Below, piece after piece: positions 20,985-63,250 of a stretch of DNA of 64,000 nucleotides (position 1 is its first letter; every line of letters starts with the position of its first letter). The position numbers were made by a program, and so were the translations under genes. This stretch comes from Polytrichum commune (lineage: Eukaryota; Streptophyta; Polytrichopsida; Polytrichales; Polytrichaceae), in contig OX485804.1 of assembly GCA_950295325.1 (NCBI GenBank), positions 24,306,001-24,370,000 of the forward strand, written 5' to 3'. The notes under the pieces are model-generated. The model had not been told where the DNA came from, made no database searches, and saw nothing but the letters and a program-made list of their open reading frames with translations.

Positions 20985-21575
20985 CTGTGATTAACAATTC
21001 GACTAGTTTAATGCTATGATCCAATAAAGAATTTAGCAAACATGAAGATGCAGTATGGAAAAAGACGAAGGGCGAGAACAAGGGTACATTTGCGAACAAT
21101 CGTTCGTGAAAGGCCAGCAGTGACCATGCGCACCATTCACGAACGTTCATTTGTGAATGAACCCTATAGTGCATTTACGAACGGGCGTTCGTGAAGGAGA
21201 TGGTCGCGGGGTGGCATCCTTTTACGAGCGTCCGTTCGTGAACGAGGCAGAATTGCACAACAGATTTGAACCCGCATGAACATACACAAAACAACCAATG
21301 CGAGATGACGCGATTCGATGCAAAAAAATGTTTCATTTATATGAATTCCGTGAAAATTTACAGTTTGTCTCAGATGATAATCTATCGTACAGGTTCCTAG
21401 GGCAACAGGATGCCGTGTCCTACAAAACTGGTCAACCTAAGGAAGCACGCAAAAATGGGCTATCGGAGGTCTCGGATGCTGATGTATATAACGCGCCAAA
21501 AATACAACGCATGTGGTTAGAGATGTTACGAACGCGCGTTCGTAAATGCATGCGGTAGTCTCAAAGATGAGTTAC
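20985..21575 (-). other. intron 3 of the long gene, with five palindromes
   Basis: Donor GAG/GTAACT and acceptor TCACAG/GAC preserve phase. Palindrome copies start near 21089, 21134, 21174, 21220 and 21526; most have one or two mismatches, the last is perfect with centre CG. Confidence 0.7.
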
Positions 21576-23004
21576 CTCGTCATCGGAGGGAGGGGCAGCG
21601 GCGCTGGATTGAGCGGCAGCTCCCTCCTCAGCGATTAACGAACGCGCGTTCGTCACATCCGCCGCCGCAGGTGCCTCAGTCTCCATTAGGTCGTCAGCAC
21701 ACGCCGCCTGAGACGCCTGGGTCTGCTGTATGTCGTCCTCCTCGCCACCCAGGTCGAGAGTCTCCATGTGCACGTCCCCAATGTATGCGGGGGGATGTCG
21801 GTCTTCCGCGGGGCTGTCCTCGACGTCCATCCTCTGGACGCCTGCGGTGTCACTCGGGCTCCCCTGTGTGTCCTCCACAATGACCAAGTCAGTGTGTCGC
21901 GCAGTATCATCGCCCCTTGTCCTATCTAGTAAACTGGGGACGACGGTGAAAGGTGCCGTGTCCGTCTGTGAAGGCAGTCCTACCCTTGGTGGGGGTGGGG
22001 TGAGGACTGTTGGACCTGAAGATTCACGAACGTGCGTTCGTAAATCCTCGTCCTCACGGATAGCCGCCGAGACTGCGTCGTGTATGTTGGCGGTGTCCGT
22101 GGGCATTGTAGGGGGTGGAGGAGTCCCCACCGGCGTTGGGTGGGGCGCTGGCTGGTAGGAATGTCCTCCCGGGAAAGGACCGTGCGTGGGGTATCCTGCA
22201 GGGAATGGGAATGCTGCCTGAGGGGCCACTGCAAAGTTTTGCAGTCTGGTCAGCATCGCCAGTATGGCGTCCGTCTTCTCGTTGGAGGACTTCAACTCCT
22301 CCTCAATTTTTCTCATTTTCCGGGCATTCTCCTCTGCAGCCGCAGCCATGTCTTCGTTCATCTTTTGCTCGAGCTTTGCGTTAAGCTCGGCGACGGAAAG
22401 GGCCTCCTCCTTGACCCTCTTGTTCTTGTCGAACTCCACCCCAAGCTCGACCATAATGTCAATGGCCCCCTCGTCCTCGTCGGAGACCTCGATGATCGCC
22501 CCCTCGGGCAACTCCACATACGGGGTCTTCTTCATCCTCCGTCGCGTGTTGCGGAACAGGTCCAACGTGGGACGGGAGCGTTGGTCGAGGACATCGAGGG
22601 TCTCCATTTTCGGGACCGCCAGCCTTTGCTTGGGGGACACCTCCTGGCGTGCCGAAGGGCTCCGCGCTTGAGGTAAGCGCGGGGAGGACATCCTGGGTGG
22701 CACCCGCCGAGGATCCAGTATATCTAGCCGGGGTCCCTTGGTATTCTGAAGGCTCCCCCGATGGGGCCAACAACCGGAGAGGAGTGACATCCAAAGCCTG
22801 GAGGATGGCATCGACGTTGACGGAGGGGCCAGGCTCGTCGTCGTCTGTTTCCATGGGCGGCATGCCTTCGTCGGCCGGCATGTTGAAGTCCGTTCTGGGC
22901 ACGGACATGTTAGCTAGGTCCATCGTCGACGCTTTTTTTCTGTGGAACTTGTAATCCTCCTCGTCGACGGTGTCAATATATGTGTTCACGCACAGCCCCA
23001 GCAT
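21576..23004 (-). CDS. element A, exon 3: acidic linker and coiled coil (frameshifted)
   Basis: The exon starts at MLGLCVNTYIDTVDEEDY after a TCTCAG acceptor, runs through an acidic, Pro-rich part (MPPMETDDDEPGPSVNVDAI), changes frame near 22650, and continues with TPYVELPEGAIIEVSDEDEG and a charged coiled coil (VKEEALSVAELNAKLEQKMN to LTRLQ). A Pro/Gly-rich and acidic tail leads to DDE at the donor. No domain family is recognised. The arrangement suggests a flexible linker that joins the N-terminal ParB-like part to the phosphatase domain. Two palindromes (near 21636 and 22021) lie inside the coding sequence and are translated as VTNARS and LRTHVRE. The antisense frames here are shadows. It could also be the start of a separate gene, because the exon begins with ATG. 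Confidence 0.6.
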
Positions 23005-23192
23005 CTGAGATAAGAAGGCAAAGATTCAGTCATTTACGAACGCGCGTTCGTAAACATGAAGGCTTTGAGCGAGGAAATAATAACAAAATAATTCACAAAA
23101 CAATCATAAGTATCGGCTGCCCATGATAAATTGTTTGGAGCATGCAGTGTTTACGAACGAGCGTTCGTAAAAAGTGGCGTGAGATGGCTTAC
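23005..23192 (-). other. intron 2 of the long gene, with two palindromes
   Basis: Donor ATG/GTAAGC, acceptor TCTCAG/ATG, phase 0. Palindromes start near 23034 (centre CG) and 23151 (centre AG) and sit close to the two ends of the intron. Confidence 0.75.
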
Positions 23193-24517
23193 CATGGCCG
23201 CATACATAAATTTGCTGCCCCCAAATATGTTGTAGACAGTCTCGCCAGTCATTGCCAAACCCTGCAATATGGAGACATAGAACTCCATCCTCAGCTCCAG
23301 CGCCGGGAAGACAGTGTACAGAGTCTCCTGGAAGAGATCCTTTGGAGGTGGGTGAGGGATGCTGTATATCTTCTTGAATGTGTTGATCGCCTTTATGGGT
23401 GCTCGCCCATTCCTAAGCGCATTGTACGTCAAGAAGATGAGGCTCACCGCTCCCACCTGCTTGTTGTCTCTGGCCTCGTTTACGGAAACAATCCCCTCCG
23501 TCTTCGCTGGCATGTATGTGCTGTGGAAGATGTTGTACTCGAACTTGATCTTGTTCTCATACAAATCGATGACGACGGATTGCTTCTCCTGCTCCACAAT
23601 CCAAAGCCATACGTGCGGCTCCCTCATGGTCGGAGATTTGTGCTCCATGAATTTCGCCATGAAGGGTTGTAAAAAGGCTCCCCCTTCGCGCCCTGTCGCG
23701 AGGCACCGGGGATCCCTCTGAAGTCGATGACCGCGAAGGGACAACCCCTTCGATCCTCCCTGACCTCGGACCTGCTGAAGGTGCCATCCCACTTGGAAAA
23801 CGTGGTCCTCTCCAGCCCCATGGTCACCACACAAAATCTTGCCATGCCCTCGAAGGTGGCGTTCCTCTTCCTCTCCAAGAAGGAGATGTACCATTGAAGC
23901 TCTTCAGGTTTCGTTTATGTTTTTTTTGCTCTTTTGTTTCCCTTGAGCTTCAGGACGGCGACGTGCTCCTTCACCAGGCTGCGCATTGAGGCACCGTTGA
24001 TATTGTACAGCACCTTGAACTCCTTCCATTTTGCCCAGTTGATATCCTCGTCGGCCTGAAAAAGGTGCATCTCAGGCAATAGGCCACTAATCTCCCGCAT
24101 CGCAGCGGTCTTCAGCTTCCTGTGGTCGCACCACTCTTTGATCGAGTACGTGCCGGGCTTGTGCTTTGGTCTCTTCAAAAATATCTTGGGATAAGGGATG
24201 GTCCTTCTGACGGTGTTCCCAAGAACGTGAACCGCACAACGCTGCAACTCTGATTCAGTCAGTCCTTGCAGGGCCCTAAAAAATTCCCGCAGTAGAGGCG
24301 GGGCCTCTCCGCTCTTCTCTTGAGCGTACTTCTCTTCTGTGTCTGGGTTCACCAGATCGCCCGAGCTGTGAGCGTCGAAGAACTGGGTCCACAACTCCCA
24401 AGTGTCTCTGTTGCAGCAAATCAGACGGAGCTCACCTTTGAGCTCCAGAACTGATTTGGTGCTCGTGGACTTCATGTCGATGGAGGAGAATTTGTCCACC
24501 ATCGCATCACAGAACGC
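23193..24517 (-). CDS. element A, exon 2 of the long gene (stop and frameshift)
   Basis: The exon begins AFCDAMVDKFSSIDMK after a TTGCAG acceptor and matches copy B exon 2 almost residue for residue up to the window end. Landmarks: LRLICCNRDTWELWTQFFDA, YSIKEWCDHRKLKTAAMRE, NINGASMRSLVKEH, then an in-frame TAA (KKT-stop, near 23913) that copy B lacks, FLERKRNATFEGMARFC, TFSKWDGT, a frame change near 23690, and KAINTFKKIYSIPHPPPKDL to KFMYAAM at the donor. No known domain recognised. Cys and Trp residues are well kept between copies, suggesting a folded region following the DGQHR domain. Function not inferable from sequence. Confidence 0.6.
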
Positions 24518-24640
24518 CTGCAACATACATACGAGGACGTCAGTGTTCAATGCTAAATACGAACGCACGTTCGTAAGTTGGAAAATTTAGAAATTGTTTA
24601 ATGCAACATATGCTTTACGAACGCTCGTTCGTGAACTCAC
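24518..24640 (-). other. intron 1 of the long gene, with two palindromes
   Basis: Donor AAG/GTGAGT, acceptor TTGCAG/GCG. Two palindromes (near 24555, centre CA, and 24613, centre CT) take up about a third of this 123-bp intron. Copy B keeps the same layout in its 116-bp intron at 63135-63250, with different centres (TT and TG). Confidence 0.85.
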
Positions 24641-25013
24641 CTTCCACTGTGGAGATTGCGTCTTGGCGTTCTCCCTCTCTTTTGGCGGGCATCCGTGCGC
24701 GACCCACACGTCTCTGGCCACCACTATATTCGCCGCCCATGAGGCCTCGAATGCCTTGATCTTGTTTCTGGAATTCAAAAATGTAGATATTTTGCGGAGC
24801 TTGTCCCAATCGTCAGACCAAACCAAAAACGCCTTCCAGTAGCGCAGGTCCGCCTTGAGCTCGTGCTGGAAGTTATCATCATTTAGGATGATCTGTGACG
24901 CCTCCAGACTGTGTTGTCCATCGATTATCCAGAACTCTCCATTCTGGATTATTGGCCAATCCTTCTCTGTGGGGCGTGACAAAAAACCCTTGGGCATCAC
25001 GCAAACGGTCTAC

Positions 25014-27148
25014 TGTGAGGCCAAACCCCCCACCCTTAAGCGTCCGTAGTCCGAGTAGTGGGTTTGGGCTCACATTCCTCCGCGGTATTGGATTTGGACT
25101 TGGATGAGTCCATAGTGCAAGGTTCACCCTTCAAGTGGTCTTGGATTTAACTGGAATTTCACTTTTAACAACTCAATGTACGATTTCAATACGTATGTGG
25201 AGAATGCACAAGTTAACTATGTTATTTTAACCTCCTTATGCTCGGGTGTTATTTTGTCTTTGTTTGCTTCTAACGTCCATCCGACTGCTTTAGCTACACA
25301 AGCCCTTAAGGATATCCCTCTCCTAAATGGAGTCCGTGCCGTTGACTCTATACTACCACTTGAACTATCACTTGTGTATTCCGTATCGCTACTATAAGAG
25401 GTCTCACTTGGTGTCTCCATACCGTACATAAGCCTTTAAGTATTAAGAAATACTTATGTGACTTATGTCAATCTCTCCCTCGCACCTTTGGTCTTTGCTT
25501 CCTTTGTCTTGCCATCGCGAGAGTGCTCCACATTCTCCATTAAGTTGTGCACGTGGTTTATTTTTAAAGAGAGGATGCAAGTGTTAAAAAAACACTATTT
25601 TCTATAGTCAATCTCAAATACATTTACTTGTGAAAGCCACACATAACACTAACTAGCATAATGTAACTAACTACTTGTCTATGAGCTAATTAGGTAGGCT
25701 ATCTACTAAGCTCCTTCATGAACCCATCTCTTTACTTTCTAATTACATAAACCTAGCTCCTTCATAAACCCAGCTCCTTCATAAACCCAGCTCCTTCATA
25801 AACCCAGCTCCTTCATGAACCCAGCTCCTTAGCTTCTAACTAAACAAACCCAGGTCCTTCATAAACCCAGCTCTTTACTTTCTAACTAAACAAACCCAGC
25901 TCCTTCATAAACCCAGCTCCTTCATGAACCCACAACTTTGTAGTTGTAATCCCCAACTACCTCACTAATTATTCAAGCCCTTAACTAATCTTCCTACCTA
26001 ATTTCCCTAATTCTACTAACAACCCCTTTCTAATCACACAATTCTTCTCTAATCCTAAAATCCTAAAATCCTAGAGAGGAGAGGGGGAGAGAGAATTTCC
26101 TAACTTCACTAAGACTAACTAATCCACACAAGTATATTTTTGCACTCATCACAACATCAAGTGCTCAACTCTTAAACATGGAACTTGCAACCACGTGTAT
26201 TCAAAACATGAACTTTAAGTACCACAAATTGGAATCATGAATTAACTTTAAAATCCTTCACGTCAACACTAATTCTACCAAGAGGTCAAGCCCTCTTCAA
26301 GGCTAACAAGCCTTGGCTCTCAAACTAAAAACTAAGCACACACGTGTGCTCCAATATGGCTTCCCACACCCACACTTATAACTCGTGGGGTGCCTTGGAG
26401 CACAAAGGAAAGAGAGGATGAGTGAGGGAAGAATGAGGGATTATATAGTAAGCTTGAGGGGGTGAGCACCCTCAAGGCTCACGATAAGCCCTTGAGATTT
26501 CCTCCTACTTAGTAGGCGCCAATCCTATCTTCTAAGCCTTCCTCCCTCAAATGATCAACAAGGATCCTAATTCGAACATTTAACTAGCCTTGGCTTTCTA
26601 CCTACCACACTTTACCAAACTTGGGATGCTTCAACCCAAACTTAGCCTCCTTCGCTTTCCGCCGCCATAACTTTCTCCCCTTACTTTCCCAAATCGTCGC
26701 TCACCACTTAATTCAAACCACGATGCTTAACTCGTGATTTGATTGGTGCTTTGAAAATTTGCTTATCCTCCACCTTGCATTCTTCCTTGGGCCTTCCCCA
26801 TTAAGTGGCCATGATGAGGTGGTCCACTTGTGCGCTCCATGTGATCCTCCATTCATCCCAATTCGAATGCACTTGCCTCTTGAGTCACTTTGGTTGTCTC
26901 CATCCATTTGTACTAGCCTACTCACTAACTACTCAATCCAAGTTCTCCTTACCTATCCTCATTCACTCAAATCCTTCCGAAGGTAAAAACACAATAACAA
27001 CTCACATCCTAGCCTCTTACAACATGGTACTTCTAAGACTAACATTTCACTCTTTTTATATTTTTGTGAAGTAACATGCTACTTCAAAGTGCATCAACTA
27101 ACGTTTCAAGGGTCTAAAACTAAATGTGGGCACCCTTTTGGGCTCACA
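25014..27148 (+). mobile_element. LTR-family L insertion L3 with TCTRC target duplication
   Basis: It begins TGTGAGGCCAAAC and ends TTTTGGGCTCACA. TCTAC precedes it and TCTGC follows it, a 5-bp duplication with one change. It splits the DGQHR exon of element A between the sequences that are contiguous in copy B, so it arrived after element A was in place. At 2.1 kb it is longer than L2; the extra length is mostly AT-rich noncoding sequence. No gag or pol is seen. Confidence 0.85.
25745..25935 (+). repeat. minisatellite in LTR L3
   Basis: An 18-bp unit, CCCAGCTCCTTCATAAAC, is repeated about nine times with variants (CATGAAC, CTTTACTTTCTAACTAAAC). Confidence 0.85.
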
Positions 27149-28076
27149 TCTGCCTATCCCACTTCACGTTGTTCATGAGGTTATTAATCTGCCACTTCAC
27201 CCCTCCGCTTTCACGAGACCTCACCACCCACTTGTTAGGGGATTTCTCGCACTTGAAACAATCCACGTTGAAAGTGAAGTGGCGTCCCATAGGCCAGCAA
27301 TCCTTGGAGTAGTTGTTGAAGTCTCGAAGGATTTTTGTCGCTTTGGCAGCGTCTGGGTTTTCTCCCTTCTTCAAAGGGGTTGGCATCACTGGCGGAGAAC
27401 TAACCTCAGCGCCTTCCGTCAATCCGGACTTCTCCATCTCGTCCCTCGACCTCTTGGATGGAGTGGATTGTCTGCTGGGCCCTTCTGTCAACCTGCTCCC
27501 CGAATGCACAGGCCGCGGAGCACTTCTCGATCCTCCTGCCCCCGAAGCAGCTGGTTTTTTCAGATTTTATTTTATTTTATTTGCCTCCGCGGCAACACTG
27601 TTGTACTTCGAAACATTCAAGGTCAGGGCAGTCAACTTCCTCGCCGTCCAGTGTTGACTCAGGGCATATTTGGTGAAGAGAGCATCCAGGTTGAAATATT
27701 TCGCATCGGATGCAACATTATTGCATGCATAAGCATAAGAGAATGGGTGCAATAGGTAGTTTAAGAGGAGGTTCACATGGTCTTTTTTATTTTTCATATC
27801 CAGAATAACAAAGTCTCCTTGTGCTTCTACGGACTCTATCTCCCAATTCTTTGTCTGCACCCATTGGTCTGGTTGGTCAGCCATTGTCTGCAGCTCATAA
27901 ATGAATCGCAATGCAAACAACCCTTCCTCGGTCTTCGTGGGGATGGCCGTCCACTCAGCCATGACTTCTTCTTTTGGGACATAGTTGTCGTTCCCATTGG
28001 TATTCGAGACTCCTTCTGGAAGGCGCTCCACTGGCACTGCGAACAAGTCGATGGCGTTTCTGCTAGCATTAGCCAT

Positions 28077-28911
28077 CTGCATCACACAAGAGCAAATTAG
28101 AATTGCTTTTACGAACGTTCGTTCGTAAACAACACCGTGCCATGCATACTATTTTCATAGTGTGGTTTTTGGAAATACGAAGTTTTGAATGCTTTATGCA
28201 TTTCAGGGTGGTTTCCAATGCATTCACATTGGTTCACATCTTTCACGAACGCGCGTTCGTAATATGAGATACCTGTTTATTAGTATTTTGTACATAACTA
28301 TACGAACGCGCGTTCGTAAAGTCATGCGATATTGTGGAACCTATTGAGTTAAATTTAGTGTTGTGATTGGATTTAAGTACTTATATGAATTACAGCATGG
28401 ATATATCCCTCCATTTTGGAATTAGGGTTTCGAACGCACGTTCGTAAACGTAGTCCTTGGGTTCCAAAGAATCTTTACGAACGCGCGTTCGTAAAATGGT
28501 ATATATTTTGCGCGGCACATGCATTTACGAACGCGCGTTCATAAATGGTTGTATATTGTGCGCGGTAGAGGTATTTACGAACGCTCGTTCGTAAATGAGC
28601 TTGTTGTTTGTTTTTATATATATAATTAATAATAACAATATAGTGTCCGTACATATACGAATTCGTATACATACGTATGGCAAGGTCTTGCTTGCTGTGT
28701 CTCAGCAAAGCTTGCACTTGTGCCTGCAAGTGTTCGTCAGAAAGGTGAGATTGAAGAAAAACAATACAATCAAAACATATAGACTTGGAATGTGACAGAG
28801 AATTCAGAATGAGGATCCGAACTTGACTTCCAAAACACATGCCATTCAATAATGAACAAATATAGACTATGAAGGATTTGAGAATGGAAGGAATATTGTG
28901 CTTACTCTGAA
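28077..28911 (-). repeat. leader intron of the long gene with seven palindromes
   Basis: Palindromes ACGAACG-NN-CGTTCGT start near 28109, 28242, 28301, 28430, 28475, 28524 and 28573; centres are TT, CG, CG, CA, CG, CG and CT. The acceptor just before the ATG is clear. The donor (GTAAGC near 28911) is inferred. Copy B has eight palindromes in the matching interval 60939-61841. Confidence 0.7.
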
Positions 28912-29560
28912 ATTTTACACACCCAAAAGCTGCTTGCTCCCTTGTTGAAAACCCCAGGAAACCCCACAAAAGCAAGGTGATTTGAAAGTCAAATGCACCA
29001 CTGCACCACTGAAATTGCCTTCACACTAGTTGTTGCATGCTATGTACAAACCCTAACTAAGACTCTGATGTATATGCAACTTCAAATGCAGTATCTCTCA
29101 AGCTGCTACTCTAAAACTTGCAATTATCAAGCTTATAGCTTGAGTATCCTAATCTTAAGCTTCCAACTCTCAAGCTTTAAACTCTACAAACTTTCAACTC
29201 TCCAACTTTCAACTCTTCTAACTCGAGTTCTCTATTCTTAAGCTGCAACTCTCAAGGGACTGTTAATAACTCTCAACACTTGCGCCTACAAAAGAAGTGC
29301 ACCACACAAAACTAAAAAATGCAAGAGCTTCGCCTCTAAACTCTAAACCAACGCGGCGCTCCTCCTCTCTCTGCTCCAAATGAGAATGAGGAAGGAGAGG
29401 AGGGGGCGCGGGGAGGTAGCCCGCGCCTCTAGGGTTTTCCCTCGGGCTGCCACATGGCCGCTTCCCATTGGGGAGGGAAGGGATGGGTCGGGCTAGGAAG
29501 ATGAGGGGATGGGATGGGGAGATATATAGCATGGGGTGTGGGATGGGTGGATGGGGGGGA
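28912..29560 (-). promoter_or_regulatory. probable 5' leader and promoter region of the long gene
   Basis: CTTGAGAGTT-type repeats (here read on the other strand between 29090 and 29260) and a GC-rich block with CCTCCCCGCG and CATTTGGAGCAGAG (minus strand) match copy B at 60217-60740. Conservation between two otherwise diverged spacers and the position upstream of the leader intron suggest transcription initiation here. No firm TATA box chosen. Confidence 0.5.
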
Positions 29561-29994
29561 TGGGTTGGAATTCATTGGGGTTTAGTAATTCAATGTAATC
29601 AAAGCACATAAACATATTCAATGTGACTTAATAAAGTGATTTGCATGGGGGGCACTAACCGATTTGACATAAATATATGTCATCACAATAAGAAATGCAA
29701 CTATATATTACACCATTTGCACTTAGTTTGAGACTTTCCCAACTCTCTAATTAACGAAAATAATCTAAGTTGGATGTATAAGCAATAAAGGCATGTTAAT
29801 TTCAAGCTTTTTAATATGTATATGCCTCCATCACATAAACATAAGGAGTCCAGTACAAAACATGCATTTTAAATGCTACATCCCCTTCATCTACTTTGGA
29901 TACATTGTAAACATCTTCTAGATAGGGAGTATGAATTCAATTTCCACATTGCACATCATGTACTAGGGATTCGATGAAAACCCTACCCCCAACG

Positions 29995-30175
29995 ATGTGT
30001 ATTAATATGGTTGTTTAGAAATTCCCTGTTTTGGGACGGGTTGTTTTTTCTTTAACCTTTCCATGGACGGGTTGATTTAGAAATTACCTGTTTTGGGACG
30101 GGTTGTTTTTTCTTTAACCTTTCCATGGACGGGTTGGTTTAGAAATAATTACCGGTTTTGGGACGGGTTGCAATT
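29995..30175 (+). repeat. short tandem repeat, about 67-bp unit
   Basis: Two and a half units built around TTTTGGGACGGGTTG and CCTTTCCATGGACGGGTTG. It is present in copy A only, as far as I can see. Confidence 0.8.
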
Positions 30176-30639
30176 TTTTTTGCCTTTCAATTCAAGGTTT
30201 TTGGACGTGGACGGGCAAAACCTTTGTGAAAAATCAGCCTTCGGTGGGGGGGTTCAAAAAATAACAACTATACAAAATGTACAAGTAACACTTGTACAAC
30301 TAAAACCCTAAACCATGAACATTTATAGAATTAACACTAATTGTTTTTAAAAAGAGAACCCTAAGGTTTAATACAAAAAAAGCATAAACGATAGTATATA
30401 TAATTCAACTTAACTATTAATTGAATGAAACATTCTACAAAACGTAACACTTATAACGACTTGAATGTATAAGTAATGAGTTCACATTAAATTCATGATT
30501 TGTAAACCCTATATGTAATGGATGCCTCTATCACATTAACTTCAATAACTTAGTAAACATGCTTGAATTTTGTTTATCGTCATTCATCTGAGGACATTTT
30601 AGATTGAACTTGTGCATCGCAGCCATGTGGTCGAATACA

Positions 30640-30673
30640 CTAAACCCTAAACCCTAAACCCTAAACCCTAAAC
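30640..30673 (+). repeat. telomere-like run
   Basis: About five CCCTAAA units inside the spacer between the two divergent genes of element A. A decayed counterpart on the opposite strand is at 58186-58215 in copy B, so the run predates the split of the two copies. Confidence 0.9.
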
Positions 30674-31521: not shown

Positions 31522-31525
31522 CATA

Positions 31526-31557
<32 letters not shown>
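31522..31557. repeat. AT dinucleotide microsatellite
   Basis: An alternating TA run just upstream of the conserved transposase promoter region. Copy B has a longer, more broken AT tract at about 57275-57345. Confidence 0.85.
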
Positions 31558-31656
31558 GATTTGGTGGTTCAGACCTTGGTTACATCTAAGGTGTGCGACC
31601 GATTTACATTTTTTTCCAATATAATGTGCTTGCATGCAATACATGTTGCATACAAA

Positions 31657-33043: not shown

Positions 33044-33048
33044 GTGGG

Positions 33049-51473: not shown

Positions 51474-54400
51474 TTACACATCTCCGTCTTCCGCTTCATA
51501 TCCATTTTCGGCGTCATTTTCCGCAGCTGCAATACATGCCAAGTTGTCTTTGGCAAAATCTATATGTTTTTGGGGGATGGTCATTGTTTCTGTTTTGGAA
51601 CCTTTGCGCGGCTTCCAAGCACAAAGTATAGTATCCGTATTTATCCAAACCGGTGTGTACGCTGAGTCCACTGTCCACTTAAAATTCTTTTTGGTGTCCC
51701 ACCTAAATAAGTGCGTAGCACGTTCTGGTCTTTAGTACTTGGACGACAATATTCCACCTCAATCTGACGAAAGTTGGGGCTAGTTCGAACAAAATTGGGT
51801 GAAGACAATGCTTTCACCAACCAAATTGGCTTGGGATGCTCCTCATCCCCTGCTCGTACGAGGACCAAATAACCTTCATGGCAATCAACACCTACACGAA
51901 ACGACGGTGCCGGTCGATTGCGGGCAGGGCCAACGTAATGCTCATCCATTGCGAAGTCTTCACGAACGTCTCCATTGTTAAAAAACATGGTGTCGGACTC
52001 GACAACCGTCAAACGACTTTGTGGCCAAAATCCTTGTGTTAAAGTTGTACGGGTATCACCACCAAGTGTCATTAGGGCCGAGCGAATGCGATCCCAATAC
52101 GCAATCAAAGGTTCATGAGTATCTCTAACACGTCTAGTGATGTCTTCCTCACACAACTCTTTCCAATATTCAATGAATCCGGATATGCCTTTGATGATTT
52201 CCGGCCCATTCCTCATGGGGTCGGGTTTGCAAGGCTTTGGATCCCCATCCAGGAGCAAACATTTCCCATCATTGTCTTGACGCCATACGAGTATACCATC
52301 ATCCGGGCCCCAATTAGGAGATGTACACAAAAGCTTGAATTGCATGGCTGGGAGACCATCATCCCTTATATAGAATTGGAATTGTTGTGCTTTGGTATGC
52401 CTCACCAAACGGTTCCCTCCCTTCAACATGTATGACTTGATGAAGGCCTTGAAATTTGGTACTTCCTCAATCATGTGCGGAATTACTGGCATATGGTCCA
52501 AATCCATATACGATTTTATAAGAAGAGGTATGGTTGGAAAATCTTCTTCATGCAACTTTATGCTCCACCGTCCGAATGATGCATCAATGTCGTCGTGTGT
52601 ATGTCCCACCATAAAAAACGACACAAACACCTCCTTGAAGATTCCTTTCGCCACGAAAAATGAGCAAAAACAAAATATGTATCGACATTTGTTGTCTTTC
52701 ACGCAATAATCAAGTTGAACGTGAAGAGTTGGAGGCAATGGTTTTGTACAAATAGGTTCTCCCGGTGGTTCTAGCAATGACGACATACAAACCTCCTTAC
52801 CCGCAAGCACTGCCTCATAAAGGGGTGTCGTTCCACAACCATCAAAAAGTGCACATGATGAATGTAACGGCGGCTTCTCTAGATCGCGCAAGAGTTTTGC
52901 AAATGAACCCACTGTGTGGTTAGCATCGCCAGGGTAAAAATCCAACCCATAATGGGCATACATTACGTCTCCATGGCCGTGGGCAATCATCCCTGCGAAA
53001 AAAAACAAACGATGCTTGAACAACAACAATAACAACGACAACCCTAAACGGAGATATGAAATTGGACATTTGGCAAACAAACCCAATAAAATTTGAGAGA
53101 ATTTGAATACATATTTGTGATTCAATACAAACCTGTGACAGATACGGGCAACTTGAAGAGACCATCCGTGGCCTTTATTTTGCGTGCATAACAAGGACAT
53201 GCGGTCTTGGCGTGGTCCATTTTATCATGGATGATTGTTAGAACTTCTGTAGGCCTCATTATGGATAGAGCACGGTTCTTGTAGTAATCTTGATGGTGAG
53301 CTTCTTGGCTGTTAATATGTTCAATATATTTTGCTTGGTGTCTGGTGTGGGATTCGGTGCCTATGGGGTGGACGTCTCGAAGACCTTTGTATTTTTCACA
53401 CGTCGTACACCTAGCGAATTTGTCCCCTGGTCTCTTCAAAATGTATTCGGCAAACTGTTGGTTTTTAATCACACTCAACTTGGACAAAGAAATGGGCCCA
53501 CATCCCGCTATGTGATCCACTTCGTTGATGTCCGTTAATATGTTCTTCCATTTTGTACCCGTGGGCAACACCATTTGTACAACTTTCTCCCCTGACGACA
53601 ATGTCCTCGTCTTGTGGGGCATTGCATCGGCCAATGGGACTATGATGGTGGAGAGTGTCGCGGAGGCTTGGAATGTAGCCTCCCTAGGTTTCTTTGTGCC
53701 CGAATTGCCATGAAATCGAGAGCGGCGACCCAACGATGAATACTTTTGAAACCTATAAAAGTCAGACTTTGAGACGGCGTGGATGGTATACCATGCAGTA
53801 CAACACACTTCCACATTATCAAGTGTGACCACCTTATGCCCATGGGTGTCAATGTGGACATTTCTGTGGACCTCGAGTTTCTTTGCCGATCTCATACGGA
53901 AATCCGCAAGCCACATCTCTTGACGTAGGGACTTAATTTTCTCCCGCGGGAAAAATTGGCAACATTTCCTCTCGCAACAGTCTTTGGCGGACACAAAACG
54001 GATAGATTCGTCTCCCAATATGCGATCCCGTCGACGTTCCTTATCTCCACGAGGCACACGGTTAGAATCATATCTGTGTAGGCCTTTGCGAGGACGTATT
54101 TTGGCCAACAAAGCTAATTGCATTTGCTTATGGCGGCGCTCATGGTCCAACAAGCTTACTCCGTTATGGAGAACCTGACAAAGAAGTCATTGACGCAAGG
54201 AAAATCTCCATGTCACCGGGACGTCAAACGGAAGCAAAGAATTCAAGATGCACACACCCACATCATCGGGACCAAGGGGGTTGGCATCCACACAATCACG
54301 GGGATCAGAGTTTCTACATATGTCATCTGCCACCGGGACACCAACCTCGTTGAAAAGAACAACATCAAGGTCCATCCATTGCTCCCTAATGAAACCGGCA

Positions 54401-54609
54401 CATAACGGAATGTCATCGTTGTCATCCCCGGAACGTATAGATTGTTGGTGCGCTTCAAATGATTTGTGGGAGGATGCATCCACAAACCCACTCATGGCAT
54501 TTGCCATGCCATGACTACCCGCCGACGGCGAAGATAGTTCACAGTCACCATCGGAAGAGGAAGCTTTTGTGGACAACTCCAATGAACTATATCCAACGTG
54601 CATCGCCAT
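51474..54609 (-). pseudogene. element B transposase, DUF7869-type (stop and frameshift)
   Basis: Exons 54609-53133 and 52992-51474. MAMHVGYSSLELSTK starts after a GTTTAG acceptor. The same features appear in the same order as in copy A: DKERRRDRILGDES, EVCCTAWYTIHAVSK, CTTCEKYKGL, IIHDKMDHAKTA, then in exon 2 HVQLDYCVKDNKCRY (second Asp kept, its following Asn changed to Tyr) and FFMVGHTHDDIDASFGRWSI. Lesions: a TGA after WRFSLRQ near 54186, and a one-base deletion near 51705 (TYLG) that moves the C-terminal part into another frame, where it reads PVWINTDTILCAWKPRKGSK to the end. Copy A is open at both places, so the ancestor was intact. Likely inactive. Confidence 0.8.
52993..53132 (-). other. 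intron of transposase B
   Basis: GTTTGTATT donor, TTTTTTCGCAG acceptor, same position and phase as in copy A. Confidence 0.8.
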
Positions 54610-54614
54610 CCAAC

Positions 54615-56921
54615 CTAAACAAACCACCAATAAATGACCAACACAACAACAACTGCAATGCATACAAAAGCGGATACGAGATATGCCTATATATATGGCT
54701 CAAAAATCACAACCAACTCTCGCCACACCGTTGCAGGACCTCACATATGAAGACGAACGTGCGTTCGACAACAGCCCCATGACATGCAAATCCTACACAG
54801 GACTCAGACGTCCCTACACAACGAAACCCCATTCCGATATATATTACCCGTGAAGGGCTTTGGGTCGAGTCGCTAATAAAACATCAGAAGGGTTATCCAC
54901 CACCAAATGACAACATAAGCACATATATTCACGAACGCGCGGACGAAAACATCAACCTAATATACAATAAAATCTAAATGGAACATATTATAAGAGCACC
55001 TAAAATATACTTGCCACTTTATCCACATGCAGTAAGCATCATATTTGAGGGGCGTATATTTGAGGGGCGAGTGTTTACGAACGGTCGTTCGTTAGCTACA
55101 GCCGAAATTGAGGGGCGTATGTACACGAACGATCGTTCGTAAGTTCCAGCCGAAACTTAGGGGCGGATGCATACGACCGATCTTATGTATGTTACAGCCG
55201 TGACAATGTTTGTCAAAAATGATTGGACACGTCCGAATAGAGATATCTATAGCCACGTTACAGGGATACATGAAATCCAATTTCCAGGGGAAAATGATAA
55301 TCGACATCTATCACTAAAATCATGATTGCATAGATACGAACGAGCGTTCGTATCTATCCTAAACATGGTGTAGTTGTCGCAACCCTTGCTAGCCCCCTTA
55401 GCAATCTTGCCAATTTTCCTTTCTAGCAAAAGTTACGAGCGCTAACCCTTCGCATACCGCCATGGTAATGGTTAGCTCCTCTTACCCCGGACCATATAAT
55501 TCAAAGGAGGGGAACCAACCCTCCTACTTTGCTTTCGGGACTCACCCCTTAATCGGTAACCCATTTCTTCGATGTGGACTTCCATCCATGGAAGTTCCAT
55601 CTTATGTTGATCATCGCATTGCCGGAGCAACACTACAACAACCCGAACCATACTAGGCAACTATGGCCTCACAATGGGCCAAAGCCCATGGAGGCCGTGC
55701 CGTTCGGCCTCGGGTGGGTGAGGCCACACCACCTCACCCATATAAGCCTCTAGGACTCTACGCGGGGCCCCTACCCCACCGTCAACCAACCTCTTGTCTC
55801 TCTACCAAGAGTTGGGGCCCAGTGGACATTTTCCCTTAGCCGCTGGGCCTAGAAGCCCCCACAGCTTCAGACCATCATAACTTCCTTGTATGATGTCTGA
55901 TGCTAACACTTGACCACTCCATCTTCATCTACGCTTCACGTAGATGCCGATGGACTCCTCACTTGCCCCATTCGGGCAAGTGGTGAGGAAGTTATGCCTG
56001 TTTGAACCTTGGCAGTCCCGGGAATCACTCCCAGGCACTGCTGTACCAGGGCGCTGTCCCGGGACAGCGCCCCACTCAAATGGCCATAACTCCTAGCTCA
56101 CACCTCCGATTGAGGTGTTCTTGAGCATTCTAGAATCACCACACCATGAGCTACGCATAGCTCATGGCCTTACCCTTGTGCCTCCTAGTCTCCGTGGGTG
56201 GGAGGTGTTCCCAACGCCCGGGGCCCTCACCCACACTAGGATCATTGGGCCCTCTCACCAACGGCGCCACAAGTCCCGGGTGTCACTCTGGGGTCCCCCT
56301 TATGCCCATGGTGTTTCGGGCACTCCTCATGGAGAGGTGCGCGACAGTAGTCCTCTACACATGCTTGCGTCAACAGGTCTGTTGGTGGATGCGTGGACGG
56401 TGGACTGGTGGTATTTACGAACGCGCGTTCGTAAAATTGAAAAACCAAATTCTCCATGGACACAAATGGTAGTGCGAAATACGAACGCCCGTTCGTATTT
56501 AACTTCCATATTGTTAACGTAGCCAATGCACTGAAGTATATAAATTAAGGGATGTTTATGGATTCTTGAAAAATAATCCCAGGTGATATTTACGAACGCA
56601 CGTTCGTAAATATCCCATTATCAGATGATCCGTTGGAGAAAACAGTTACACGGGAACTTATACGCGTCTGAGTCTTCAAGGCAGACATACGAACGTACGT
56701 TCGTATATCATCGACACAATTTTCGTGCCTAGTTCTGTCTATAAGTAACTCAATGTCGAGTACGGTTTAGTAATCTACTTACGAACGCACGTTCGTAAAC
56801 AATTCACATCACATGTATGTACCTCTTGTACATGTGCTACCAACTCACGTTTATGAACGTGCGTTTATAAACGTCCGGTATTTGCGGCGGTATATACGGG
56901 TATGTGCAATCTGTAGTGGAC
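54615..56921 (-). repeat. leader intron of transposase B with twelve palindromes
   Basis: Palindromes start near 54752, 54929, 55074, 55122, 55170, 55334, 56414, 56480, 56589, 56687, 56779 and 56851; those near 54752, 54929, 55170 and 56851 are decayed. Copy A also has twelve, although A gained four through a tandem duplication that B lacks. Centres differ from copy A (GT, AT, AG, CG, CC, CA, TA). The donor CCCAG/GTCCAC is inferred. Confidence 0.7.
55370..56400. other. copy-B-specific insertion of about 1 kb
   Basis: This GC-richer stretch, without palindromes, has no counterpart in the leader intron of copy A. Its edges show weak inverted similarity (GTAGTTGTCGC and GCGACAGTAG). Probably a nested element or LTR; type not determined and no coding motif seen. 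Confidence 0.45.
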
Positions 56922-57142
56922 CTGGGAGGTGTAGGGTTGGCGCACAAGAAAATGGTTTGAATGCGTTCTAGTCAAGTCTGTGGAGCGCACACTTGGATGT
57001 GCCACAGAAAAAAGCTCTTCTGTGGGGGGAAGAGCTTTAAGTACCTTCCCCCCGATGGTTCAAAATCCCTTGGAGGCTATTTAAAAAGCGGATTCCCGCC
57101 GCCTACTTTGACCTAACAATATGCCATTCCATTCATGCGCAA

Positions 57143-57156
57143 TATATAAATAGCAT
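57143..57156 (-). promoter_or_regulatory. probable TATA box of transposase B
   Basis: Minus-strand ATGCTATTTATATA, identical to 31657-31670 of copy A. Confidence 0.5.
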
Positions 57157-58411
57157 TATATATGGAACATGTCTTGCGTACATGCAACATATTGTAAATA
57201 TGTAAATCCATCGCACACCTTAGTTGTTACCAAGGTCGCACGAAAATATGTCTATATGTCTATATGTCTATGTTTATATGTATATATATATATATAATTT
57301 ATATTATACTATTATATATATATGGATTATTATAATATATATATATGGGTTGATGGTTAACATTGAGTATTAAATTATTTGCGACTAAGGTGTGAAGTCC
57401 AAGTGAATTGATGAAGGTCTAAGTGATATATATATTCACACACACAATGAGATAAGAACATATTGTGGAATCCCCTAAAATTGTAGGTATCATATGATTC
57501 ACATAAAAAAAATGCTTGTAATATGGTCACCAAGTGCATGAATACCAATAAAAAGTCGTTTAATCCATAATGGCTTGTGCTAGGTAGATTGAGGACATTT
57601 GGAACTGGAGGCTCACCAAACATCGGCCCATATTAATATGACTCATTGCTACAATTCATCATTGGTGAAAATTAAAGTTTAATGCACTAGTATTTGATCG
57701 TTAGTTCAAGTTGACACCTAATTAAATGACTTGACGTCCTATTGGAAATTTACTTTAGGTCCACCATGGTGTGAAAATGGATAACTAATTTGGAATGGTG
57801 CATACAATAGTATGCACTTACAATTATATATTTGTATTATTTGCAACAAAAAGTATGTGCATGACCATAGCTTAAACTGTTGATTTAAGTTGAAGTCTTA
57901 AATCATTCATGTTATAATAAGATTAAGTATGTATTGTGTGATCAAATTGCACTCAAAACTATTAAAGTGAAAGGACTAGCATTTCAAAATTCACTCTTCA
58001 CCCCCTAAACCAATGTTTTATATCAAAATGACAATTAATGGCATGAATCTAGATTGTTATAGTTGCTATGACCCAAATAAAGCAATTTCCAATCGAACCA
58101 ACATTGGTAGACCATTTTGACATGATGCGCATAGACCACAACATGGCCATATATAAGAAAGGTTGGTAAGATAAAAAGATGTAGGGTTTAGGGTTTGGGG
58201 TTAGGGGTTAGGGTATAGAGTTTGTGAAAGTTGTCTATGTGGTTTGCGGACTTAGGGTTTAGATCGTTACTTCAATGCATTATATACACAAACAATATCG
58301 ACTCCTAAATAATCCATATCGCACTAATTTAATTTATGGGAAGCTCATGCTATTAATTGATATTACTAGCAAAACATGCGACCACATGGCTAAAATACAC
58401 TACACTAAATA
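57157..58411. other. divergent spacer of element B
   Basis: It aligns in inverted order with about 30600-31560 of element A, including 'aaggtgtgaagtccaag' and 'gaccacatggc'. Noncoding on both strands. Confidence 0.6.
58186..58215 (-). repeat. degenerate telomere-like run
   Basis: TAGGGTTTAGGGTTTGGGG and further variants, counterpart of 30640-30673. Confidence 0.8.
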
Positions 58412-58736
58412 TGATATTTAGTGTTTGATTGTATAATATAGTGTTGTTACACTATTATGGTCAACACTAAATTTCAATTCTTTGATAATTAGTGTTGGAC
58501 ATATTAAATGGGCCACCACATTTCCTACTACCATGTCTTTTATGCTTTTATCATTGTTAAATTTTTTTTTCATATTAATTTCCTTACACAAAATTTGTGC
58601 ATGCGACATCCACATATTACCATTATAATTGAAATTAAGTGTTTGAGTTCGCAATGAATAGTAGTTACTTTCATAGGGTTAGTGATATTTAATGTACTAT
58701 GCGTTTGTATTTAGAGTATCTAACACTAAATATCAT
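58412..58736. mobile_element. MITE-like element in element B
   Basis: TGATATTTAGTGTT at the left and AACACTAAATATCA at the right form inverted ends. Several internal AACACTAAAT copies occur. Element A has no such sequence at the matching point. The termini resemble those of the 48264 MITE. Confidence 0.6.
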
Positions 58737-58934
58737 ATTAAGGGTGGTTCAAGCTAACACCTCATTAAATTAATGACATCGTATTGAAAATTGAATTTTC
58801 ATCCACCTCTTGTGGAGAATCAGATAGCCCCTCTTCATAATTCAAATTGAGTCATTTATATATGTAATATTTATTTGAGGAACCATTGAAGAACTTTAAA
58901 GATGTCTCGTTCATGAAAACGACATTTGCATCTT

Positions 58935-59010
58935 GGGGGTGGATTCTTCATCGAAAACCTACTAAATGACATGAATTGTTAAATACAAATTATCTGAACA
59001 TACTTTTCTA
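58935..59010 (+). repeat. isolated terminus of the T1/T2 TIR family
   Basis: GGGGGTGGATTCTTCATCG, then AAAACCTA and AAATGACATG, as at the left ends of T1 and T2. No matching right end was found, so it is truncated. Confidence 0.55.
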
Positions 59011-59319
59011 AAATATGTTTACAAGGAATCCATATGTCGAGGTACTAAGGGGATACGGAAAGTTAAATTTATATCCCTAAACTAAGCTCCTCCCATTTCC
59101 TATTTCATTTTTCCTGAACCCTCATCCCTCCATGTCCCCATGGTATATGTTACCAAAAAGCCTCCACCCTTCAATTTCGTCCTAGCCCGAATGGAGAAGT
59201 TTATAATGACATGTAGAGATTTCTCTCTTTGTAATACAATGTATGATTCCAATCTATCGTTGGAATATAAGCAACTTAGCCAAGTCTATACTATGTCTTC
59301 TTACACTCCTTAATCTTGA

Positions 59320-59572
59320 AGTTTGGAAGTTTGGACATAGTCTCGGTTTTTTGGCTCTCAAAAATTCATATGAAGTCCAAAAAATGAGTTCTTGGTATCC
59401 ATGGATAGGTAATGAAGTCCTCTACATGAATATGCAATAATATTTCTACTGCCACAAATCATATGGTCGCAATTTTACACTGTTCCCTTTGAACCTACAT
59501 TTTTTCACTAGTTTTTGGAAGTTTGGACATAGTCTCGGTTTTTTTGGCTTTCAAAAATTCATATGAAGTCCA
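59320..59572. repeat. direct repeat of about 60 bp beside LTR L4
   Basis: 'tttggaagtttggacatagt' and the following 45 bases occur at 59321-59385 and again at 59513-59572, the second running straight into the LTR-like sequence. Confidence 0.75.
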
Positions 59573-60216
59573 ACAAAACTAAATGCTCCAATAAGAGACT
59601 TTTCACATCCGCATAAGTATAAGGCTAATCAATGTAAATCCAAGTATTCAAACAAAGCCATAAATTGAACTTTAAATCATTCACGCCCAACTATTACTAA
59701 CAAGAGGTCAAACCCTCTTCAAGGCCAACTAGCCTTGGCTCCTAACCTTACATCCATGCACACACACGTGCTCCTATCTTGCTTCCCACGCACCCACACT
59801 TATAACACGTGGAGTGCCAAGGAGCACGAAGGAAAGAGATGATGAGTGAGGGAAAAATGAGGGATTATATAGTGAGTTTGAGGGGGTGAGCACCCTCAAG
59901 GCTCACGATAAGCCCTCGAGATTTCCTCCTACTTTGTAGGCTCTTATCCTATCTCCTAAGCCTTCCTCCCTCAAATGATCAACAAGGATCCTAATTCAAA
60001 CATTTAACTAACCTTGGCTTTCTACCTACTACACTTTACCAAGGTTTGTCCTTCTCCTACTTAAATCCCCTCCACAAAACCCTAATGATTCAAACTAAGC
60101 TTTCTTCAAACTTCACTTTTTTTATATTTTTGTGAATAATCATAAATCACCAAAACACCACTTGTAATGTTTTACAAGTGTTAACAACCAATGTGGGCAT
60201 CAATTTTGGGCTCATA
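59565..60216 (+). repeat. LTR-family L, copy L4 (5'-truncated)
   Basis: It aligns with L1 (about 65-724) from 'gtccaacaaaactaaatg' to the end TTTTGGGCTCATA. It is inserted in the divergent spacer of element B; element A has no LTR at this place. Confidence 0.75.
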
Positions 60217-60938
60217 TTATCTCCTCATCCCCATCCCCTCCCCATCCTCATTCCCATTCCCATTCTCATTCCCATCCCCATCCCCATCCCAGCCCTCGCC
60301 AGTGGCCACTAGCCACGTGGCCGCCGCCGGGAAACCCTAGCGGCACCGGCTACCTCCCCGCACCCCTCTCTCTCCTCCTCATTTGTCATTTGGAGCAGAG
60401 GAGGAGAGGAGCTCTTAGTTGCAACGAAGCCCTTGCCAATTTTAGAGCCTCATTGTGAATGTTATGTTTTGTTGTGTTGTCAGAACCTTGAGAATATGAA
60501 AGCTTGAGAGTAGGAAAGGTTGAGAGGTTGAGAGTTATAGAAAGCTTGAGAGGTGGAGAGTTTTAGAAAGATTGAGAGCTTGAATTTTAAAAAGATTGAG
60601 AGGTTGAGAGTTTTAGAAAAGTTGAGAGCTTGAGAGTTTCAGAAAGGTTGAGAGCTTGAGAGTTTTAGAAAGCTTGAGAGCTTGAGAGTAGGAAAGCTTG
60701 AGAGCTTGAGAGTTTCAGAAAGCTTGAGTTTTCAAAGCTTGTGAGTTGTCTACATCAGGGTTTGTGTAGGATTTGCATATAAGTTGTGAAGGCTTGAGAG
60801 TGTAAGAAAGGAGTGAGGGTAGAAGAAATTGCAATTGAAAGCGAATTCAACACTTTTGAAAGACAATTTGATGTGCATTTGTGAGGATTTCTGGATTTCA
60901 CAGTAGGAGGCAGGAGGTTTTGTGTGCAACAATTCAAT
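60217..60938 (+). promoter_or_regulatory. probable promoter and 5' leader of the DGQHR gene, copy B
   Basis: A C-rich block (CATCCCCATCCC), then CCGGGAAACCCTAGCGGC and TCATTTGGAGCAGAG match the inverted block at 29340-29560 in copy A. From 60479 to 60735 follow some fifteen imperfect repeats of GAGAGCTTGAGAGTTTTAG, a purine-rich leader also present in copy A. The leader ends at a GTGAGT donor at 60939. Confidence 0.55.
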
Positions 60939-61841
60939 GTGAGTACATGTTTCCTTTACAAATCACTCCTTCACAATCTGAAATTGTTGTTTGATGAATT
61001 CCTTGTGATTATTTTATGCATTATGAGGTATGGTATGTTTTGTATGGAATAACACTTTCCTCTTCATTCTGAATTATCAATTATTGACTCGCAATTTTGT
61101 TCTGATTCTATTTTTCACTTGTGTTTCATCATTCTGATTACGAGTTGTAGGCGCATGAACAACGCAAGATAGTAACATTCATACCAACATGTATACGTAC
61201 ATGTATATGTATGGATATATATGTAAATAAATATACCATTTTCTAATCCCAGATGACCACATTTACGAACGATCGTTCGTAAATGTGGTCTGAATACATC
61301 CCTTACCCCACAAACATCTACGAACGTGTGTTCGTAAATACGCACCTCACCCTCCATTTTTACGAACGCACGTTCGTATATCCATTGATACCCGGTACAT
61401 CAGACAAATCCACAAATTAAATTACACATACAAAAATACGAACGAACGTTCGTAATCACAAACCCTTCATGGTAATTGTCTGCATTCCCGAGTAGCATAA
61501 TTTACGAACGCACGTTCGTAAATAAGAACTAAAGTATTAATTCACCTATTTAGAAGATGCTCATGGAAATTAGAACAATCCTCGTGGAAATTAGATAACC
61601 CTGGACAATTCGTAGACTTGTTTAGAAACAATACGAACGCACGTTCGTAAACTTGAGCCAAATACACCTTAGCAACCACATTCTTTACAAACGATCGTTC
61701 GTAAATGAAATCAGCGAAGACATAATTAAAATTCCTCACGGGTACCCATAGCCAGCGTTCATTGATTAGTATATATGATTTGCTTGTCAATTACGAACGC
61801 TCGTTCGTAAACACAATACTAAATGTTTATGTGCTCTGCAG
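60939..61841 (+). repeat. leader intron of the DGQHR gene, copy B, with eight palindromes
   Basis: Donor AAT/GTGAGT, acceptor CTCTGCAG directly before the ATG. Palindromes start near 61262, 61317, 61360, 61436, 61501, 61631, 61685 and 61791, with centres AT, TG, CA, AA, CA, CA, AT and CT. Confidence 0.75.
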
Positions 61842-63134
61842 ATGGCTAGACCGAGCAGGAGCGCCATTGAGATGTTCGCAGTGCAGATAGATCAGCTACC
61901 AGAGTCAGTGTCCGACCCCAACGGAAACGATAATTATGTCCCCAAGGAGGACTTCATTGGGGAATGGACGGCACTGCCAGAGAAGACATCAGACGGTCTT
62001 TTCTGTCTTCGCTTCACCTACGAGCTGGAAACGACGCCGGACCAGCCAGAGCAATGGGTGCAGATGAAGACTTGGGAAGTAGAATCGATTGAGGCACAAG
62101 GAGATTATGTGATTTTAGACATGAAAAATAAGAAGGATCACATTAACCTCCTGTTAGAGTACAGGAGACATAGTTTCTCCTACACATACGCAGAAAATAA
62201 CGTAGTGGTTGATGCCAAACACTTCCTCAAGGACCTCTTCACGAAGTACGCCCTGAGCTCGTACTGGACAGCAAGGAAGTTGGCCGCGCTTTCCTTGAAT
62301 ATCTCCAAGTACAATAGCGCGGTCGCCGAAGCCAACAAGAAAAAGAAGAGCCCACGAAAACCATCCGCATCCGGGGCAGGAGGATCGAGAAGTGCACCCA
62401 GGCCGGTGCCTTCCGCGAGCAGGGTGACGGAGGGTCCCAGCCGACATTCCACACCATCGAAGAGGTCCCGGGACGAAATGGAGAGGTCTGGGGTAACAGA
62501 GGGCGCTGAGGTGAGCTCTCCTCCCCTGATGCCAACCCCTTTAAAGAAGGGTGAGAATCCAGATGCAGTAAAGGCAACAAAGATCCTACGAGACTTCAAT
62601 AATTACTCGAAGGATTGCTGGCCCATGGGGCGCCACTTCACGTTCAACGTGGACTGCTTCAAGTGCGAAAAGTCCCCCAACAAGTGGGTGGTAAGACCTC
62701 GCGAGAGCGGTGGGGTGAAGTGGCAGATCAACAACCTCATGAACAACGTCAAGTGGGATAGGCAGACCGTCTGCGTCATGCCCAAGGGGCTGACATCCCG
62801 ACCGACAGAGATGGATTGGCCGCGAATCCAGAATGGAGAATTCTGGATTATAGATGGTCAGCATAGCTTGGAGGCGTCGCAACAAATCCTCAAGGACGAC
62901 AACTTCCAGCACGAGCTGAAGGCTGACCTGCGGTACTGGAAGGCGTTCTTGGTCTGGTCGGACGATTGGGACAAGCTGCGCAAGATTTCAACCTTCCTGA
63001 ACTCGGGGAACAAAATCAAGGCGTTCGAGGCTTTGTGGGCGGCTAACATAGTGGCTGCGAGAGACGTCTGGGTGGCACACGGATGCCCACCAAAGGAGAG
63101 GGAGAACGCCAAGAACCAGTCTCTTCAATGGAAG
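61842..63134 (+). CDS. element B, exon 1: DGQHR/ParB-like protein, open reading frame intact
   Basis: This exon reads 431 codons without a break. Approximate residues: 1-165 an N-terminal region with NGNDNYVPKEDFIGEWTALP and VILDMKNKKDHINLLLEY; 166-230 a Lys/Ser/Pro-rich linker with a basic cluster SKRSRDEM that could direct it to the nucleus; 230-300 FNNYSKDCWPMGRHFTFNVD and a CFKCEK pair of cysteines; 310-350 the signature PRIQNGEFWIIDGQHSLEAS, the DGQHR-type motif of the ParB/sulfiredoxin-like superfamily; 350-430 RYWKAFLVWSDDWDKLRKIS and WAANIVAARDVWVAHG. Family members bind or modify DNA, some as CTP-dependent clamps on palindromic sites. The start is chosen because ATG follows the acceptor in both copies. 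No HTH domain is evident, so DNA recognition is unproven. The stop at 63233 is in the intron and not used if it is spliced. Confidence 0.7.
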
Positions 63135-63250
63135 GTGAGTTTACGAACGTTCGTTCGTAAAGTGTTGGATTCACGAAAACATCAATTACTGTCTCAATTT
63201 ACGAACGTGCGTTCGTATTATGTGCAACACTGACATCTTGTTTTGTGCAG
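63135..63250 (+). other. intron 1 of the DGQHR gene, copy B, with two palindromes
   Basis: Donor AAG/GTGAGT, acceptor TTGTGCAG/GCA, phase 0. Palindromes start near 63141 (seven bases after the donor) and 63198. Confidence 0.85.

Follow-up and report, generated by a model that had tools for sequence, protein, structure and literature searches.

Palindrome arrays in DUF7869 transposons of the moss Polytrichum commune and a predicted ParB-fold protein as their probable reader

Two related transposons in the moss Polytrichum commune carry dense arrays of a palindrome, ACGAACGNNCGTTCGT, which is confined to these two elements throughout the 64,000-nucleotide stretch analysed here (C2:24306001-24370000 of a 408-Mb, 64-contig assembly; hereafter the window). 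Each element encodes a DUF7869 transposase and a second protein with a GQH motif and a predicted ParB-like core (the ParB-fold or GQH protein), and related elements elsewhere in the genome bear other palindromes of the same geometry that track their own version of this protein. Judging from these sequence patterns, the ParB-fold protein is very probably the reader of the palindromes. The full statement, that each element encodes its own dimeric, family-specific docking protein and that this protein most likely serves anti-silencing, leans on analogy and strikes us as reasonably likely.

A conserved palindrome in the non-coding DNA of two elements

Searching the window for ACGAACGNNCGTTCGT at up to 3 mismatches returned 55 matches, 37 of them exact, 9 with 1 mismatch, 4 with 2 and 5 with 3, against a chance expectation of 0.93 on average and a maximum of 6 among 100 dinucleotide shuffles. 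Three of the 55 (24563, 55129 and 56685) are offset readings of an adjacent site, which leaves 52 distinct sites, 31 in element A and 21 in element B, and the whole window holds no match at this threshold outside the two elements. An earlier, sequence-only reading had reported about 52 copies confined to A and B, and both statements hold; a weak site at 19859 (2 mismatches) falls to the left of the range it gave (21089-63220), yet within A, which ends at 18747. The genome-wide count that it called for gives 5602 exact copies across the 408 Mb and 4 of the reversed pattern. Because reversed-pattern controls address chance rarity only, this count leaves room for sites at host genes elsewhere in the genome.

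The two arms of the palindrome are conserved to a degree that neither its centre nor its surroundings approach. Between related elements (five full elements compared in five ordered pairs), the arms diverge by 1.6-3.8%, the centre by 12.5-31.8% and the flanks (27 bases per side) by 11.1-25.9%, as would be anticipated from the earlier remark that the arms are kept while the two central bases are free. The widening by TTT/AAA that had been noticed is likewise real, with the four positions beyond the 16-mer carrying 1.11, 1.31, 0.71 and 0.36 bits of symmetrised information, and since information extends past the 16-mer, the class-1 half-site is about 10-11 bp long. In three counts, the sites lying mostly within coding blocks (defined as blocks whose protein is homologous to that of other classes) number 3 of 29, 4 of 30 and 2 of 34, where 14.2, 14.6 and 15.9 would be expected. 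Fixed arms, a free centre, two-fold symmetry and the avoidance of coding DNA together support the proposal that this is a dimeric protein-binding site, which gains further strength because related elements bear other palindromes of the same geometry that track their own protein version. The companion claim, that the arrays do not reflect recent copying, stands in part only, as tandem duplication does multiply sites. In the array of A, 31954-32283 and 32264-32593 are 94.5% alike, and because the array is partly a plain tandem duplication, independent origin is untrue for some of its sites.

Element A (18747-36574, minus strand) is complete, while element B (51072-64000, plus strand), of the same family and in the opposite orientation, continues past the window into C2:24370001 and onward. 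In A, 12 palindromes lie upstream of the transposase gene (31956-32940, partly a 310-bp tandem duplication) and 7 upstream of the ParB-fold gene (28111-28592); within the latter, 2 more are found in the intron that separates the first large coding block from the second (24559-24632), 2 between later coding blocks (23036-23168) and 7 in its 3' part and downstream (21092-22041). In B, 11 palindromes are upstream of the transposase gene (54753-56868), 8 upstream of the ParB-fold gene (61265-61808) and 2, at 63143 and 63201, in intron 1 of the latter (63135-63250, plus strand, with GT...AG boundaries read by eye). The general placement is upstream of both genes, inside the introns of the GQH gene and downstream of it, and dense arrays upstream of both genes recur in the related elements E1, E2, E3 and E5.

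Related families carry palindromes of their own

A relative adjoining E1 bears a different palindrome, TTTACGGACG-NN-CGTCCGTAAA (class 2), whose core has 1394 copies in the genome vs 1 in the control; for a further one, class 5, the GTTTGGGTCG core has 10,011 exact copies vs 0 in the control. We sampled the DNA upstream of DUF7869 genes of varied reading-frame length (18 regions) and of GQH genes (13 regions), and at least 3 copies of one exact palindrome with 7-bp arms and a 2-bp centre are present in 13 of the former and 9 of the latter. The count never exceeded 1 in 30 rounds of shuffling and was 0-1 in nine control pieces of the window. Among the remaining DUF7869 regions, L024 and L025 hold 17 and 20 class-6 sites at up to 1 mismatch.

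Ten half-sites emerge in all, each in a symmetric palindrome with a 2-bp centre (for example CCCACGGGTG-NN-). The first five are TTTACGAACG, TTTACGGACG, CCCACGGGTG, CCCACGGGCG and GTTTGGGTCG, and the last five are GGGTGAGGCA, CTTCCACTCG, CTTTCACTCG, CTTCCTCTCG and GTTCCTC(T/G)CG; because the last two have the same inner bases, the inner 14 positions distinguish nine of the ten. A single base per half-site separates class 3 from 4, 1 from 2, 7 from 8 and 7 from 9. Classes 1-5, 9 and 10 have variable centres; those of the regions of classes 7 and 8 are invariably AT, and the class-6 region listed has CA. A table of classes by region (41 regions, with class-10 sites scored as class 9) is almost diagonal, so classes nearly never mix: the exceptions are five class-2 regions with one class-1-like site each and a class-4 region with two class-3-like sites. 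The sensing of CpG methylation was considered as a general principle and dropped, because the arms of class 6 (TGAGGCA-NN-TGCCTCA) lack CG.

Nine site classes adjoin their own version of the GQH protein

A homologous GQH protein gene adjoins nine of the ten half-sites (classes 1-5 and 7-10), and the cores of these proteins are 18-87% identical between classes. Across 11 representatives, core-protein distance correlates with half-site distance (Mantel r 0.78, p 5e-5); these are 11 of 16 aligned proteins, a set from which c8a (cut short) and c1E5 (broken) had been removed and class 6 left out. Of the six class-2 clusters listed on C1, five lie within 10 kb of a class-2-type gene, and none lies that close to a class-1-type gene. 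This cluster-gene pairing drew on genes among the matches listed (98, 150 and 139 rows), for which misses say little; among the matches listed overall are 76 transposase genes of 2136 candidates and 98 GQH genes of 1089 candidates.

Where within the protein the specificity might reside can be asked of close relatives. Close pairs with different sites are 55-74% identical in the N-terminal part, 43-61% in the linker and 82-87% in the core, and one pair with an identical site has 67%, 64% and 80% identity in the same three parts. Because same-site pairs show like divergence of the N-terminal part and linker, these comparisons do not place the specificity part within the protein.

A predicted ParB-like core

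The GQH protein takes its name from a (D/N)GQH(S/T) motif in which G339, Q340 and H341 are invariant in all 11 aligned members and are followed by S or T. The label "DGQHR protein" in the sequence-only reading proves to be loose, as the motif reads DGQHS, NGQHS or NGQHT, and NCBIfam and Pfam scans gave no match to the curated DGQHR model (TIGR/NCBIfam, DndB). Weak profile matches, each in one of 11 homologues, were to DUF6551 (0.088), DUF1015 (0.099) and the ParB-like phrog_1033 (0.029). Pfam scans of these homologues at E up to 10 listed four families, and DUF1985/DUF287 is not among them. A search for solved relatives gave 0 matches with the single protein and only matches at E of at least 2 with the profile, and a pattern scan of IMG/VR returned 152 stretches with no relative among them.

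A scan of prokaryote genomes found three homologous loci (L064, L065 and L066), all in contigs of a metagenome-assembled genome (MAG) labelled Synechococcales (AVDCRST_MAG81), whose proteins are 25-29% identical to the GQH protein. These contigs contain split reading frames and transposon-type genes; because the reading frames are split, a eukaryotic origin is suggested, with the contigs being contamination of the MAG. The homologous genes there have palindromes of their own upstream and between exons, CAGCTCG-NNN-CGAGCTG (present 3 and 4 times) and ATCCTCG-NNN-CGAGGAT (present 5 times), so that the pairing of protein and palindrome recurs in another organism, in favour of a docking role.

A structure model from the window sequences alone had a mean pLDDT of 33.6 and was unusable. 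For a second model of the core, the window sequences were combined with those of L064-L066 (6 sequences in the alignment). When this model was compared with known structures using VIA-align, the 13 best-ranked chains were all ParB, Noc, KorB or PadC (Z 6.0-8.0, rmsd 3.1-5.0, 91-104 residues), and the next ranks were a free serine kinase, SbnI, two uncharacterised proteins and sulfiredoxins (Z 3.6-4.5), with the caution that Z below 8 may reflect a common arrangement. Foldseek also placed ParB as the best match (E 0.047, probability 0.96). Based on this model, the core of the GQH protein is probably ParB/sulfiredoxin-like. The CTP-binding motif of ParB is GERR, and GQH(S/T) stands in its place here.

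A docking model and its alternatives

We infer that the ParB-fold protein, rather than the transposase or a host factor, would be the binder, that binding would be dimeric and that the outcome would be anti-silencing. If so, the palindromes would be binding sites for the element's own ParB-fold protein, which would dimerise and read a 10-bp half-site on either side of a free 2-bp centre, and docking would be restricted to promoters, introns and other non-coding DNA of copies of its own family. Protein and site would then have changed together among related families to yield about ten private specificities in this one genome, and the most likely use would be to keep family copies expressed despite host silencing, in the way that VANC serves VANDAL elements. 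A bolder version, which we put forward as doubtful, is a eukaryotic counterpart of ParB-parS, in which the protein would load on its private palindromes and spread or bridge, so that a partition-complex-like coat would shield the copy from silencing, with about ten non-interfering codes operating side by side.

Several observations weigh against the docking model. Three of the 13 regions upstream of ParB-fold genes (L049, L051 and L056) have no array or hardly any. Class 6 has as its neighbour a broken frame that contains VDGQH, and the best tblastn match of this frame (E 0.21) does not amount to significant homology. Among the clusters listed on C1, a listed gene of the matching class lies within 10 kb of three of six class-1 clusters (none has a class-2 gene) and of one of seven class-5 clusters (C1:621959). 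The fold assignment draws on a core model of middling quality (pLDDT 61.9 on average, 74-85 in the core blocks); Foldseek gave no match at E up to 0.001, and the sequence profile gave no PDB or Pfam match above the cut-off. In the palindromes of the MAG contigs, the centre is odd in length rather than 2 bp. The correlation between motif and protein partly reflects shared descent, and the transposase also diverges with class, which leaves it a possible reader.

Plasmid ParB and KorB proteins act as autoregulators, and the ParB-fold protein might bind the palindromes mainly to repress or activate the two divergent promoters, with no role in anti-silencing. The dense arrays upstream of both genes would suit such a switch, but introns and downstream non-coding DNA are filled with sites too, 25-40 sites per element far exceed what a promoter switch needs, and L020, which spans 10 kb and has 33 exact sites, persists without an intact family gene; we consider simple autoregulation rather unlikely. 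The transposase might instead bind the palindromes for excision or target choice. En/Spm-type elements have subterminal repeats that serve as transposase sites, and the palindromes here occur only in elements with a DUF7869-kind transposase or their derivatives, a transposase that, too, differs between classes. We rejected subterminal transposase sites as the principal explanation because the sites are internal: in E1 the outermost ones stop 3.9 kb short of the left end and about 1.1 kb short of the right. Classes 7-10, moreover, were reached through the ParB-fold gene only, and in class 8 a further 6.2 kb upstream contains no DUF7869 match, so that transposase binding seems improbable.

If host transcription factors bound the sites and were exploited by the elements, symmetric, CG-rich and promoter-near palindromes could be understood, but a host factor would favour a single common site, whereas some ten palindromes track the element's own protein, and we regard this as slightly less probable still. 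The least probable account is that the palindromes are neutral repeats made by slippage or gene conversion, or intronic RNA hairpins. Local tandem duplication is present, as neutral repeats would have it, but the arms are kept while adjacent bases and the centre change, sites occur upstream of genes besides introns, and the letters of the arrays are fixed beyond what mere pairing would ask.

Organisation of the elements and neighbouring sequences

The termini of the family consist of AACACTATATTCG... and an inverted copy, with ends in A of AACACTA...TAGTGTT and a 4-bp target-site duplication of AATA. A and B are 71-87% identical across long aligned stretches, and intact copies are about 16 kb long, E1 and E2 being 99% alike across 16.1 kb. 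In the common layout, the DUF7869 transposase gene is on one side and the (I/V)(D/N)GQH(S/T) gene on the other, transcribed away from the transposase. The transposase gene of A is on the plus strand (32950-36169; DUF7869, PF25273, E 6.5e-41), and its ParB-fold and phosphatase genes are on the minus strand; that of B is on the minus strand (51641-54663; DUF7869, E 8.8e-36). The ParB-fold gene of A (21561-28085, minus strand) is split by an insertion of 2.1 kb (about 25010-27148), parts of which recur at 65-722 and 59566-60214 (75-89% alike). In B, exon 1 of the ParB-fold gene (61842-63134, plus strand) contains the motif, as IIDGQHSLEAS, and the predicted ParB/Srx-like core. The protein of this exon (C2:24367842) is 100% identical to that at C2:24421870 and C2:24466800 (L005-L007), 54 and 99 kb away, and a large duplication is possible from these sequences. 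A NIF-type phosphatase open reading frame (ORF) follows the GQH gene in A (20442-20990, minus strand; NIF/FCP1-like, E 4.6e-07) and in one class-5 region, where a relative adjoins the ParB-fold gene (L042:695-1537, E 2e-14).

Among 15 copies examined, the 4-bp sequences on the two sides are the same in 8 and mismatch in 5. In the other 2, inverted copies on C3 (C3:58117886-58133972 and C3:58372181-58388287, flanks L075-L078), they are reciprocally swapped (AAGT/ACAT vs ACAT/AAGT), as would be expected if recombination between the copies had inverted the intervening ~240 kb. L020 (C1:638500-648499), with its 33 exact class-1 palindromes in 5.5 kb and just a fragment of transposase-side homology, is probably a non-autonomous, site-rich derivative, to judge by its sequence. 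Reverse-transcriptase-like frames of copia type lie directly beyond element A (36588-37453, read by eye), and telomere-type AAACCCT repeats, which point to a plant, occur in the window at about 30640.

Implications

If the docking model is true, this would be a second, independently evolved, transposon-encoded system of family-specific DNA docking beside VANC, with a predicted ParB-type core put to use in a eukaryote in about ten matched protein-site pairs within one genome. Such natural pairs would allow us to ask how a dimeric binder shifts its code stepwise, and they would also bear on how elements avoid cross-activation and on whether docking alone undoes silencing. Matched pairs would in addition be candidate tools to address chromatin. 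In a limited set of open-access literature (titles and abstract openings on palindromes, anti-silencing, moss, ParB-like/sulfiredoxin proteins, DGQHR and transposons), no such system is described, and there is nothing on DUF7869.

Comparison with known systems

By domain content the GQH protein is no VANC, and by the GERR motif it is no ParB, as far as sequence can tell; it shares features with both. According to the accessible text of two reports (PMC5735166, PMC10398659), VANC binds motifs in the non-coding DNA of its own family and affects methylation. The likeness to VANDAL/VANC in those accounts comprises an element protein with short motifs that its own family repeats in introns and in intergenic and terminal non-coding DNA, motifs that change between related families and are multiplied by tandem duplication, and a protein with conserved and variable parts. 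VANC as described there differs in that its motif is the short, non-palindromic YAGTATTAY, where the palindromes here are 20-22 bp long, and in that it has DUF1985/DUF287, where the GQH protein has a predicted ParB/Srx-like core with no DUF1985/DUF287 match and accompanies a DUF7869 transposase. Binding and hypomethylation were measured for VANC, whereas the present system is known from sequence alone.

The bacterial ParB-parS and Noc-NBS systems share with ours a ParB-type core (here predicted) and palindromes of similar length, parS and NBS being given as 16 bp in the accessible text of PMC8494293 and PMC8429893. Ours differs in belonging to a eukaryotic transposon with tens of sites per element and about ten specificities in a single genome, and the GQH protein has GQH(S/T) for GERR as well as extra N-terminal and downstream parts.

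CACTA (En/Spm) elements make a 3-bp target-site duplication, and they too have repeated sites within the element. The ends here contain CACTA, two bases inside the termini, but the duplication is of 4 bp and the sites are internal and palindromic. Searches gave no match to an En/Spm-type transposase or TNP model, DUF7869 (PF25273) being the sole match to the transposase ORFs of A and B. A functional parallel is that the accessible text of PMC10398659 links the transposon protein TnpA of En/Spm to demethylation of its own element. Fungal transposons with a TET/JBP dioxygenase, as presented in the accessible part of PMC12730594, are likewise DNA transposons bearing a gene proposed to counter methylation, but theirs encodes an enzyme, rather than a sequence-specific docking protein with arrays of sites.

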